From Thermoanaerobacter ethanolicus JW 200 (GTDB taxonomy: Bacteria; Bacillota; Thermoanaerobacteria; Thermoanaerobacterales; Thermoanaerobacteraceae), in the NCBI RefSeq assembly GCF_003722315.1, contig NZ_CP033580.1, positions 2,012,501-2,076,500 of the forward strand: a DNA stretch of 64,000 bases, written 5' to 3'. Of this stretch, positions 4,318-57,556 are shown one piece after another (within the stretch, counting starts at the first letter, position 1; each line of letters opens with the position of its first letter). The translations under genes and the position numbers were made by a program. The notes beneath the pieces were generated by a model. That model did no database searches. It saw only the letters and a list, made by a program, of their open reading frames with translations, and was not told the DNA's origin.

Positions 4318-5232
4318 TTAATTTCTCCTTTCACAAAGTATTTTTAAAAGTGCCATCCTGACAGCGACACCATTCGTTACCTGTTCTTCTATGACAGAAT
4401 ACTCAGCATTTGCTGCTTCTGAAGTAACTTCAACATTTCTGTTTATAGGTCCTGGATGCATCAATATCGCATCAGCTTTTGCAAGTTTCATTCTCTCTTT
4501 ATTTATCCCAAAATATTCTCTGTATTCGTCAATTGATGGGAATAGTCCACTTTTTTGCCTTTCCAATTGAATTCTTAGTCCCATCACTACATCCGCATCC
4601 TTTATAGCTTCTTCTACATTGTAGTAAGCTTTAACTCCCATCTTTTCTATTTGGGGTGGCATCAAGGTGGAAGGGCCTGCAACTCTCACTTCCGCCCCCA
4701 TCTTTTTAAGTCCCCATATATTTGACCGTGCAACTCTACTGTGCATAATGTCTCCTATTATCGCCACTTTTAATCCTTCAAAGCTTTTTTTCTTTTCTCT
4801 GATTGTCATCATGTCCAACAAGGCTTGGGTGGGATGTTCATTTATACCATCTCCTGCGTTTATGATAGAGGCATCTGTGTATTTTGCCATAAGATGCGGC
4901 GCTCCACTCATGTTGTGCCTTGTTATTATCACATCCGCCTTCATCATCTCAACAGTCCTTATGGTGTCTATTAAAGACTCCCCTTTAGCAACACTGCTGG
5001 TTGCCACTTCTATATTGCCGTAATGAGCGCCTAAATACTTTGCTGCCATCTCAAAAGATAGTCTTGTCCTCGTGCTAGGTTCGAAAAAAATCGTCACAAT
5101 TGTCTTTCCCTTTAGTATCTGTGAATATTTTTCTCCATTTAGAATTTTTTTCATCTCCTTTGCAGTGTCTAAAACTTCCAGTATTTCTTCTTTCGATAAA
5201 TCCTTAATACCTAACAGATCTTTTCTATTCAC
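4318..5232 (-). CDS. pyrB: Aspartate carbamoyltransferase catalytic chain
   Basis: Makes carbamoyl aspartate, the committed step of pyrimidine synthesis. It is 304 residues with the carbamoyl-phosphate signature [11 protein letters not shown] at about 51-61 and the C-terminal segment [14 protein letters not shown]. The start is GTG at 5230-5232, behind AAAGGAGGAAGG. An ATG two bases upstream is out of frame and closed by an immediate TGA. No regulatory subunit gene pyrI is nearby, as usual in Firmicutes. carA and carB are also missing from the visible operon. The stop of a short leader ORF lies two bases upstream of the GTG. Confidence 0.95.
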
Positions 5233-5233
5233 A

Positions 5234-5350
5234 TTACCTTCCTCCTTTTAAAAAAAGAGTAGTAACCACATCACAACAATGTGAAATGGTACTACTCTTT
5301 TTGTATAAAATATTCTTTTCTGTTAAAATTAGGGTTTCAAATTTTGGCAT
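5234..5350 (-). CDS. Putative 38-residue leader peptide overlapping the pyrB attenuator
   Basis: A complete ORF of 38 codons starts at ATG 5348-5350 behind a strong ribosome site (AAAGGGAGGA, 6-7 bp away) and ends with TAA at 5234-5236, two bases before the pyrB GTG. The product begins MPKFETLILTEKNILYKK and ends TTLFLKGGR. It passes through the whole terminator hairpin (5251-5302) and its U-run. A translating ribosome would therefore mask the terminator and hand over to pyrB. It has no recognisable domain. The good ribosome site and exact placement argue for a regulatory role, but no homologue could be checked, so the peptide itself may be unimportant. Confidence 0.5.
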   Translation of the reverse strand: MPKFETLILTEKNILYKKSSTISHCCDVVTTLFLKGGR

Positions 5351-5430
5351 AAAAAATCCTCCCTTTTTAGAGTTTAATACTCCGGGAGAATATCTATCAT
5401 TCTCCCTTTTTAGCCTCGCTGGGCTAAATT
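5251..5430 (-). promoter_or_regulatory. PyrR-type transcription attenuator before pyrB
   Basis: On the minus strand the RNA reads TTTAGCCCAGCGAGGCTAAA followed by AAGGG (5403-5430), which fits the PyrR-binding hairpin with its conserved CNAGNGAGGCU loop region. Downstream is an intrinsic terminator with AAAAGAGTAGTA pairing to TACTACTCTTTT and a T-run (5251-5302). PyrR with UMP would stabilise the binding hairpin and allow termination before pyrB. Confidence 0.8.
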
Positions 5431-5437
5431 AAAGGTG

Positions 5438-6064
<627 letters not shown>

Positions 6065-6083
6065 AAAGGACTTCGTTTTCTAT

Positions 6084-38056: not shown

Positions 38057-40943
38057 ATAGGTAGGCTAAAAACCGATGACACGACAGTTGAATTACATGA
38101 AGTGTTATTTACGTTTCAATTCCTTATAGGTAGGCTAAAAACAAGCAAAAGAATATGCAGACAAGTTACAAGAAATTTGTTTCAATTCCTTATAGGTAGG
38201 CTAAAAACTTTAATGAAGTCTTCATATTGTAACAGGTCTCTTTTGGGTTTCAATTCCTTATAGGTAGGCTAAAAACTGAGCTTGAACTTACAGAAGAAGA
38301 AAAGAGATATCTGTTTCAATTCCTTATAGGTAGGCTAAAAACCTGCAATATCTTGCACAACTACTGCGTCAATATACAAAGGTTTCAATTCCTTATAGGT
38401 AGGCTAAAAACTTTGACTTTGCCAACGATAATAAAATCTATGTCCGGCGGTTTCAATTCCTTATAGGTAGGCTAAAAACAAGCGATAACGGCCGACAAAG
38501 CCTTTTTCTGGGGCATGTTTCAATTCCTTATAGGTAGGCTAAAAACTGTAGTCGGAAGCATAAACTGGCCGCACGCGCACCTGTTTCAATTCCTTATAGG
38601 TAGGCTAAAAACTCCAGCTCTGTAGTTACCTGGGTGGCCGCATCAACCGGTTTCAATTCCTTATAGGTAGGCTAAAAACCCGCCATCCACCAAACCACCA
38701 AGGGTGCGGTTTTCGTGTTTCAATTCCTTATAGGTAGGCTAAAAACAATATTTACGAAACCACCATGCCGGCAGACCAACTGAAGTTTCAATTCCTTATA
38801 GGTAGGCTAAAAACTCGGCTTTATCCAGTTCCTTCGCAAACCTTAGTTCGTTTCAATTCCTTATAGGTAGGCTAAAAACTTGTGCAAAGCCCCACTTCCC
38901 GGACCACCTGGGCGAGTTTCAATTCCTTATAGGTAGGCTAAAAACCCTGGCGTAGTGCTGGCGGAAGGTGTAAGCCCGGGCGGTTTCAATTCCTTATAGG
39001 TAGGCTAAAAACTGGTACGCCATCTCCCAGGTGCCTGATAAGTTCCTTATGTTTCAATTCCTTATAGGTAGGCTAAAAACCTAAGCCGCCTGAAACCACC
39101 AAGGAGGTGAAGAAACGGTTTCAATTCCTTATAGGTAGGCTAAAAACGCCCTGGCGTTTGCAAAGAGCGCTGACCAGGCCCCGTTTCAATTCCTTATAGG
39201 TAGGCTAAAAACCGATGTAGTCGGAAGCATAAACTGGCCGCACGCGCACCTGTTTCAATTCCTTATAGGTAGGCTAAAAACCTTGGAAGCAAGGCAACTG
39301 GTCCTATCCGGTGTATTGTTTCAATTCCTTATAGGTAGGCTAAAAACTCTTGAAAAGATAGGTATAAACTTTCAGCGTGATTTCTTGTTTCAATTCCTTA
39401 TAGGTAGGCTAAAAACGTCATTGAGCCGGATGGCAGCGTAGACTTTGGGGAGTGTTTCAATTCCTTATAGGTAGGCTAAAAACCGCTTTAGTGTTAGCGG
39501 CTATACCGTAGACCTTTCGGGTTTCAATTCCTTATAGGTAGGCTAAAAACGGCGTTGGTGCAGTTTCTGATTATGAGGCGTGGGCAAGTTTCAATTCCTT
39601 ATAGGTAGGCTAAAAACATAGAGGCAAAGGAGGTAAGTGGAATTGGAAAGATGTTTCAATTCCTTATAGGTAGGCTAAAAACTTTTGTTTTGCTTCATAA
39701 TGTAGCTTCTGATTATATTAGTTTCAATTCCTTATAGGTAGGCTAAAAACTTGGCTACAAAAGAAAAATTACTAAGCCTGTTTTTAGTTTCAATTCCTTA
39801 TAGGTAGGCTAAAAACAAGAAATAAGAACGACAGTTGATAAAAAAATATCTTGTTTCAATTCCTTATAGGTAGGCTAAAAACCCTTGCATGAGGCAGTTC
39901 GTTTCTATAGACCATCCAAGTTTCAATTCCTTATAGGTAGGCTAAAAACAGATGAAATATGACTGGCTGGATGTGGACAAGTTCTGTTTCAATTCCTTAT
40001 AGGTAGGCTAAAAACAGAGGTAAGACAAGGATACAAGACATTAAGCCAGCCGAGTTTCAATTCCTTATAGGTAGGCTAAAAACTTTAGAGAGAGGGCATT
40101 AGCCCTCTGCTCTTTCTAGTTTCAATTCCTTATAGGTAGGCTAAAAACGGAATAGTAAGCCCTCTTATTCCTTCTCTTTCTGCGGTTTCAATTCCTTATA
40201 GGTAGGCTAAAAACAAGCGATGTAGATTCCGGAGATTATGCAGTTGTCAGTTTCAATTCCTTATAGGTAGGCTAAAAACCAGATGATGAAATAAATATAC
40301 TTATCGAGGCAGCAGGTTTCAATTCCTTATAGGTAGGCTAAAAACTTCGCTTCTTCAAGTGCTTAGATAATGCCGGTGACGTTTCAATTCCTTATAGGTA
40401 GGCTAAAAACGAAGCAGAACAATAGACCCAACACAAGCACCGACGAGTAATAGTTTCAATTCCTTATAGGTAGGCTAAAAACCAGTAAAATTGTAGAAAG
40501 GGTCACAGAAAAGCAAATGTTTCAATTCCTTATAGGTAGGCTAAAAACCATACATAACCTCATGAAATGGAATAGTTCCATCCAGGTTTCAATTCCTTAT
40601 AGGTAGGCTAAAAACAGAGAAGCTGCTGAGTTTGTTTTTATGAAAGGTGGTGTTTCAATTCCTTATAGGTAGGCTAAAAACAAATGGCACCAATATTTTT
40701 TGAGATAAAACATTCTTTGTTTCAATTCCTTATAGGTAGGCTAAAAACCGTATATAAAATTAACGGGCTTACCTGCTTCAAAAGTTTCAATTCCTTATAG
40801 GTAGGCTAAAAACTTTAAAAAAAATAATGATAAAAGTATTGACAAAGGGTTTCAATTCCTTATAGGTAGGCTAAAAACTGCGAATTTTGTGGACAAGAGT
40901 TGTATGAAGGCTAGTTTCAATTCCTTATAGGTAGGCTAAAAAC
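38057..40943 (-). CRISPR. CRISPR array, 43 full repeats plus one half repeat
   Basis: Repeats are 30 bp. In the likely transcribed sense (minus strand) they begin GTTTTTAGCCTACC and end AAGGAATTGAAAC, giving the usual 8-nt crRNA tag ATTGAAAC. I count 43 complete, apparently identical repeats from 38113-38142 to 40914-40943. A half repeat at 38057-38073 is cut off by the IS110 element. That gives 43 spacers, mostly 35-40 bp. The orientation puts the leader at the right end and the oldest spacers at the left, next to the IS. Two spacers (38547-38582 and 39213-39251) share the same 36 bases. The type III effector operon lies on the trailer side; no cas1, cas2 or cas6 is in the window. Confidence 0.97.
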
Positions 40944-57222: not shown

Positions 57223-57556
57223 AAAAAAGTCACCCCGCCCATTGGGGCGAAGTGACTCGCGGTGCCACCCAATTTGTCCTGTATTACTAAAAAAAGCATT
57301 TCACCAAAAGGGCGAAATGCTCGCTTGTGCCACCTTTTTAACACAGGACCACTCTTTCGGGTACGGAGATTCCTCGATACCCTGTCTTTTTAACGGTAGA
57401 CCACCGGATACTGCTACTTAAAAGTTCGCATCTCACCTCGCGGGCCCATTCAATATCAGCTACAGTACTCGGCTCCCACCCGCCCGAGCTCGCTTTGACT
57501 AAACGCTGATATCTACTCTTCCCGGTCATTGGTTTTCATACATATTTATATTGTGT
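57223..57556 (-). promoter_or_regulatory. Tryptophan T-box leader with two successive terminators
   Basis: A tRNA-sensing riboswitch on the minus strand. Stem I contains an AGAGTAGA bulge region and the specifier in TTGAATGGGCC, where TGG (57447-57449) codes Trp. The main T-box GGGTGGCACCGCGAG (57256-57270) precedes terminator 2, GTCACTTCGCCCC pairing with GGGCGGGGTGAC plus a T-run (57223-57256). A second, weaker T-box AAGGTGGCACAAGCG (about 57321-57335) precedes its own terminator 1, GCATTTCGCCC pairing with GGTGAAATGC and a T7 run (57289-57320). Only one Stem I is seen, so two termination decisions share one tRNA-reading domain or the second is a partial duplication. Confidence 0.88.

Follow-up and report, generated by a model that had tools for sequence, protein, structure and literature searches.

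Introduction

For Thermus ZO5, Van de Casteele et al. are said to have proposed in 1997 (in J Bacteriol) that the ribosome, and not an RNA antiterminator, prevents a terminator from forming and that PyrR controls translation. Direct translational repression by PyrR has been described for mycobacterial pyrR. The signal at pyrBI of E. coli is UTP-dependent pausing in which no PyrR takes part. The E. coli leader peptide pyrL is translated across a terminator located just before pyrB, and this coupling prevents the hairpin (PMC5021804). In B. subtilis, three pyr attenuation regions have been described without a leader ORF, and a conserved PyrR loop motif, ARUCCAGAGAGGYU, has been given (PMC7430163). 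Since the RNA polymerase of B. subtilis outruns the leading ribosome (PMC9226507), coupling in Bacillota is not to be assumed, and attenuation by a leader ribosome would not be expected to work easily in these organisms.

Here we analyzed the leader between pyrR and pyrB of Thermoanaerobacter ethanolicus JW 200, contained in a 64,000-nt stretch of DNA (the window). Like the pyr attenuators of B. subtilis, this leader has a PyrR loop, an antiterminator-like hairpin and a terminator-like hairpin (T1), but here one arm of T1 doubles as the Shine-Dalgarno sequence (SD) of a leader ORF, and the ORF and a second terminator-like hairpin (T2) follow. A Thermus-type arrangement, in which a leader ORF extends into a terminator and has its SD under the control of a PyrR site, would be present by way of T1, judging from sequence and folding; in comparison to the Thermus scheme, the window adds the antiterminator-like hairpin and T1, shows no antiterminator for T2, and has its leader between pyrR and pyrB. 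In mycobacterial-type repression, too, the PyrR loop provides an SD through its 3′ arm, but this SD is the pyr gene's own, whereas in the window it belongs to a leader ORF with a terminator after it. In contrast to enteric pyrBI, a PyrR loop is present and UTP-dependent pausing is not required by the evidence; the enteric likeness suggested at first is a weaker comparison than the Thermus-type PyrR-gated leader. Leader ORFs in PyrR attenuators were not found described in the titles, abstracts and passages of the literature consulted. A Thermus-like scheme is said to have been proposed already; as far as this literature goes, its combination with a Bacillus-type switch is the variant seen here.

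Organization of the pyrR-pyrB Leader

The neighbours of the leader are pyrR, pyrB and pyrC, as assigned with NCBIfam models, and the features of the region are collected in Table 1. Elsewhere in the window, a T-box leader scoring 115.6 bits lies at 57240-57538 (minus strand), and a CRISPR array with 43 listed CRISPR-DR2 repeats lies at 38113-40943 (plus strand). The pyrR and pyrP leaders of the same genome have the loop, antiterminator and terminator arranged as in B. subtilis; in the pyrR leader, a pairing of CUGGCAAG with the terminator-arm segment CUUGUCAG is possible, as read from the sequence. An AUG-UAG start-stop pair found in the pyrR leader of the window and of some relatives was considered as a minimal leader ORF and rejected, as it is absent in one relative (L011) and the pyrR leader shows the ordinary antiterminator pairing.

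Table 1. Features of the pyrR-pyrB region (positions in the window).
Feature	Position	Strand	Basis
pyrR	5438..5989	-	NCBIfam PyrR equivalog NF003549, 254.9 bits (cut-off 138)
Predicted PyrR binding loop (anti-antiterminator), in the pyrR-pyrB gap	5405..5435	-	RF00515, 43.6 bits; family alignment
Antiterminator-like hairpin, GGGAGAAU/AUUCUCCC	5384..5406	-	First G residues common to the PyrR loop
T1, terminator-like and/or SD-sequestering hairpin	5356..5391	-	AUUCUCCC (5391-5384) with GGGAGGAU (5363-5356), then U-tract 5356-5351
Leader ORF SD, GGGAGG, within the T1 3′ arm	5358..5363	-	Duplex with 16S tail
Leader ORF, 38 codons, ATG start, MPKFETLILTEKNILYKKSSTISHCCDVVTTLFLKGGR	5234..5350	-	ORF list; comparison
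T2, predicted intrinsic terminator inside the leader ORF	5250..5300	-	Stem 5300-5254, about -25 kcal/mol; 7-U tract 5256-5250
pyrB SD	5237..5245	-	Duplex with 16S tail
pyrB (aspartate carbamoyltransferase), GTG start at 5232	4318..5232	-	NF002032, 411 bits
Bacillus-type PyrR attenuator 5′ of pyrR (contrast case)	5988..6073	-	RF00515, 48.5 bits

The PyrR Loop and the First Hairpin

The score of the PyrR loop against RF00515 is below the gathering score of 54, and this threshold is strict for the genome because its pyrR and pyrP sites (48.5 and 53.4 bits) likewise score below it. The loop motif, AGCCCAGCGAGGCU, lies in a conserved stem next to pyrR and differs at two positions from the B. subtilis motif; in the family alignment the loop is nearly invariant, with some pairs changed on both sides. 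The seven core pairs of the antiterminator-like hairpin are invariant among 18 sequences, and the hairpin is part of the unconstrained minimum free energy fold, which contains the PyrR loop and the antiterminator (-27.3 kcal/mol). When the lower PyrR stem was enforced, folding gave T1 with the SD paired (-25.3 kcal/mol). By these models, loop, antiterminator and terminator would be mutually exclusive, and a U-tract follows T1, as expected for a Bacillus-type attenuator. Six U residues follow T1 in the window, in its genus and in most other family genomes; in three leaders (L012, L023, and L024) this tract is degraded and the SD and ATG are retained. The leader SD reads GGGAGR or GGGGGA across all family genomes. 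Pairing counts for T1 were not used, since the alignment (A1) is off by one base for one genus (g2).

The Leader ORF Overlaps a Second Predicted Terminator

The first-pass annotation had described a 38-codon ORF with a strong ribosome binding site spanning the terminator of a PyrR attenuator. The ORF was confirmed, with AAAGGGAGGATTTTTT upstream of its ATG, and so was the strength of its SD, for which a duplex of -11.9 kcal/mol with the 16S tail was calculated in comparison to -12.2 kcal/mol for pyrB's own SD. The terminator that it spans is, however, not that of the PyrR loop but a second one, T2, whose stem lies wholly within the ORF; the single attenuator of that account had merged two elements, as the ORF starts after the PyrR-type switch. 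The gap between the leader stop codon (TAA, 5236-5234) and the pyrB GTG is one base, and not two as had been noted. The ORF product gave no match in Pfam or NCBIfam, and its reading as a known protein was rejected. A bias toward synonymous change, the check that had been suggested, was not seen within the genus (pN/pS about 0.8), and the peptide sequence is without evident selection. Since both the peptide sequence and the stop position vary, it seems from the comparison that the act of translation of this predicted ORF, rather than the peptide, matters.

T2 is supported by covariation. Of its 14 pairs, five have changes on both sides, and 96.8% of the alignment cells are paired; the covariation score was reached by 0 of 500 shuffles, which relatedness of the sequences alone may beat, and slid controls were also far lower. 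The T2 U-tract is present in 22/22 leaders. A genome search with T2 returned only itself and its own reverse, and a dispersed repeat was ruled out. The distance from T2 to the pyrB start is 21 nt, which is too short to hold a promoter, and every pyrB transcript must therefore pass T2. Upstream complementarity to the T2 arms, as would be offered by an RNA antiterminator, was no better than for shuffled arms. Given that T2 must be passed and that the search for an RNA antiterminator acting on it was negative, the simplest route past T2 would be a ribosome on the leader ORF, with PyrR controlling its SD.

Conservation of the Leader in Relatives

The family sample comprised 18 genomes with a leader, obtained from a search for pyrB; in G006, the pyrB match was merely weak and paralogue-like. 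In 18/18 family genomes and 4/4 order relatives, the leader has retained its SD and start codon, and its frame runs open into T2. The start codon is GTG in L011; the TG is invariant, and the interior of the ORF is poorly conserved. Of the other two frames, +1 meets a stop before T2 in 22/22 leaders, and +2 is open in 12/22. According to shuffling, a single family leader would be open into T2 by chance with a probability of 13-23%, and the family leaders share ancestry, so that the 18 observations fall well short of being independent; the conserved open frame within the family is therefore moderate evidence, as far as sequence goes. One open leader ORF by itself is not significant, and it is the recurrence across lineages that carries significance in these comparisons. 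Close relatives that lack the ATG, the SD or the frame, which the first-pass annotation had named as evidence against its reading, were not seen, and these elements are kept wherever the hairpin persists. That annotation had also suggested a possible link between PyrR binding, leader translation and pyrB initiation; a fixed link to the pyrB start was not supported, since the leader stop shifts among relatives from the T2 loop to past T2 or to within pyrB.

The order relatives are of two kinds. Two of them (L023 and L024) have GGGAGG, ATG, an ORF of 9 or 13 codons and T2, and their T1 U-tract is broken or gone. T1 is absent from the other two (L028 and L032), where the PyrR loop supplies with its 3′ arm the SD, AAGGAGG, of a 6-codon ORF that has its stop at the base of T2; this layout is the one said to have been proposed for Thermus ZO5. 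From these sequences, control of the SD appears to be independent of termination at T1.

Further PyrR sites were observed in this set of genomes. In one locus (L042 in G019, 2163, minus strand), the PyrR loop lies on pyrP's own SD, which points to translational repression within this family. In two others (L045 in G001 and L060 in G003), an additional PyrR site before a transporter-like gene is followed by two terminator-like hairpins.

A Probable Role of the Ribosome as Second Switch

We consider it probable that the leader is a PyrR-responsive attenuator with the ribosome as a second switch, where PyrR would hide the leader SD and, when PyrR is absent, the ribosome would block T2. At high UMP, PyrR on its binding loop would leave the GGGAGAAU/AUUCUCCC hairpin incomplete, and AUUCUCCC would pair with GGGAGGAU; this pairing could terminate transcription at T1 and would also conceal the leader SD, so that polymerases past T1 would meet T2 without a ribosome and stop. 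At low UMP, the antiterminator hairpin would form and leave the SD free, and a ribosome in the leader ORF would cover the 5′ arm of T2, allowing transcription into pyrB. Blocking of the hairpin by a ribosome, as had been put forward in the initial annotation, is consistent with the family comparison and also with the more distant leaders described below.

Similar Leaders in Other Lineages

A wider survey used a pattern in which the PyrR loop is merged with AAGGAGG and a nearby ATG; it was found at no fewer than 120 loci, with downstream gene names read from the protein start and not from a family search. Among the matches listed, the majority are the start of the pyr gene itself, e.g., Clostridium pyrB, and others have a short ORF and then a terminator before carA, carB, pyrR, or pyrB. 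In a 399-genome phylum sample, 12 genomes showed the pattern, with carA and pyrC among the genes that follow such leaders. For 21 further leaders (before carA, carB, pyrB, pyrC, or pyrR), the ORF frame reaches the terminator in 21/21 cases and the other two frames in 11 and 13, where shuffling predicts 12.6 open. Since these leaders were selected among the matches listed by their short ORF and terminator, and since some of them are related by descent, we give no formal probability. Their stop codons lie within or past the terminator. L109, with an unclear hairpin, and L217 and L218, apparent duplicates of L178 and L164, were left out of the 21. In another phylum sample, many of the best-scoring PyrR sites resemble single Bacillus-type attenuators, a sample that is biased because the Rfam model takes in the terminator. 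We tentatively suggest, at slightly less than even confidence, that PyrR-gated ribosome antitermination (at pyrB, carA, carB, pyrC, and pyrR) is a recurrent class of pyrimidine control, found in many Bacillota as well as in some other phyla. Within the window's family, this class would be fused with the Bacillus switch, one GGGAGG being both terminator arm and leader SD, and the fusion may represent an intermediate on the way between control of translation and control of transcription by PyrR.

Alternative Explanations

It is unlikely, in our judgment, that PyrR acts only via T1, with an unregulated SD and a leader ORF that is translated once T1 has been passed and merely prevents polarity at T2. 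For the window's own family taken alone, T1 might account for the whole of the regulation. The widespread six-U tract after T1 would fit such a scheme, and so would the folding, by which most of the SD is already accessible in the antiterminator form once T1 has been passed; however, L023, L024, L028, and L032 as well as the 21 leaders elsewhere, none of which has a usable T1, keep the SD, the ORF and T2, and an idle T2 would be expected to decay, yet T2 covaries. Gating of the SD is preferred over T1 alone because the order relatives point to SD control without T1. We give still less credence to an untranslated ORF, where the purine-rich stretch would be an arm of T1, the ATG and frame would be due to chance, and T2 would terminate in part and in this way set the ratio of pyrR to pyrB. 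The chance of an open frame in each family leader, the open frame +2 in about half of the leaders and the lack of synonymous bias speak for this; against it, the start codon is kept in all leaders, including those with a broken T1 U-tract (L012, L023, and L024), and the arrangement recurs elsewhere with stops within or past the terminator.

UTP sensing as in pyrBI, where low UTP would cause a pause at a U-rich leader, the ribosome would catch up and open T2, and PyrR would act separately at T1, seems very improbable to us. The family leader ORF is indeed U-rich before T2 (0.30-0.43, versus 0.22-0.23 in pyrR and pyrB), but in the order relatives the ATG-T2 distance is 19-26 nt with a U content of 0.16-0.32 and no U-run longer than two, and a PyrR loop is present in every case. 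If the PyrR-gated leader ORF is real, it would provide a natural test of early coupling in Bacillota, and it would show one RNA-binding protein shifting between repression of translation and termination of transcription through the same purine-rich segment.

Other Leaders with a PyrR Loop and an SD

Several leaders from the survey differed from the above. In two Alkaliphilus leaders before pyrP (L166 and L173), an ORF of 12-14 codons has its SD merged with the PyrR loop, and a CCUCC inside this ORF could pair with AGGAGG, the pyrP SD; a leader ribosome might thus free pyrP translation, which would be a translational counterpart. A PyrR loop with an SD and a short leader ORF was also found outside Bacillota, in Candidatus Subteraquimicrobium (L154) and in a member of Herpetosiphonaceae (L109), the latter with an unclear hairpin and a next gene that is not pyr-like. 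In carA/carB leaders (L066, L080, L099, L117, L136, L153, L164, and L216), (G)GCUAACC recurs in the 5′ arm of the terminator; this sequence is similar to the PyrR loop's 3′ arm, often holds the leader stop codon, and might also pair with the 5′ arm of the loop.
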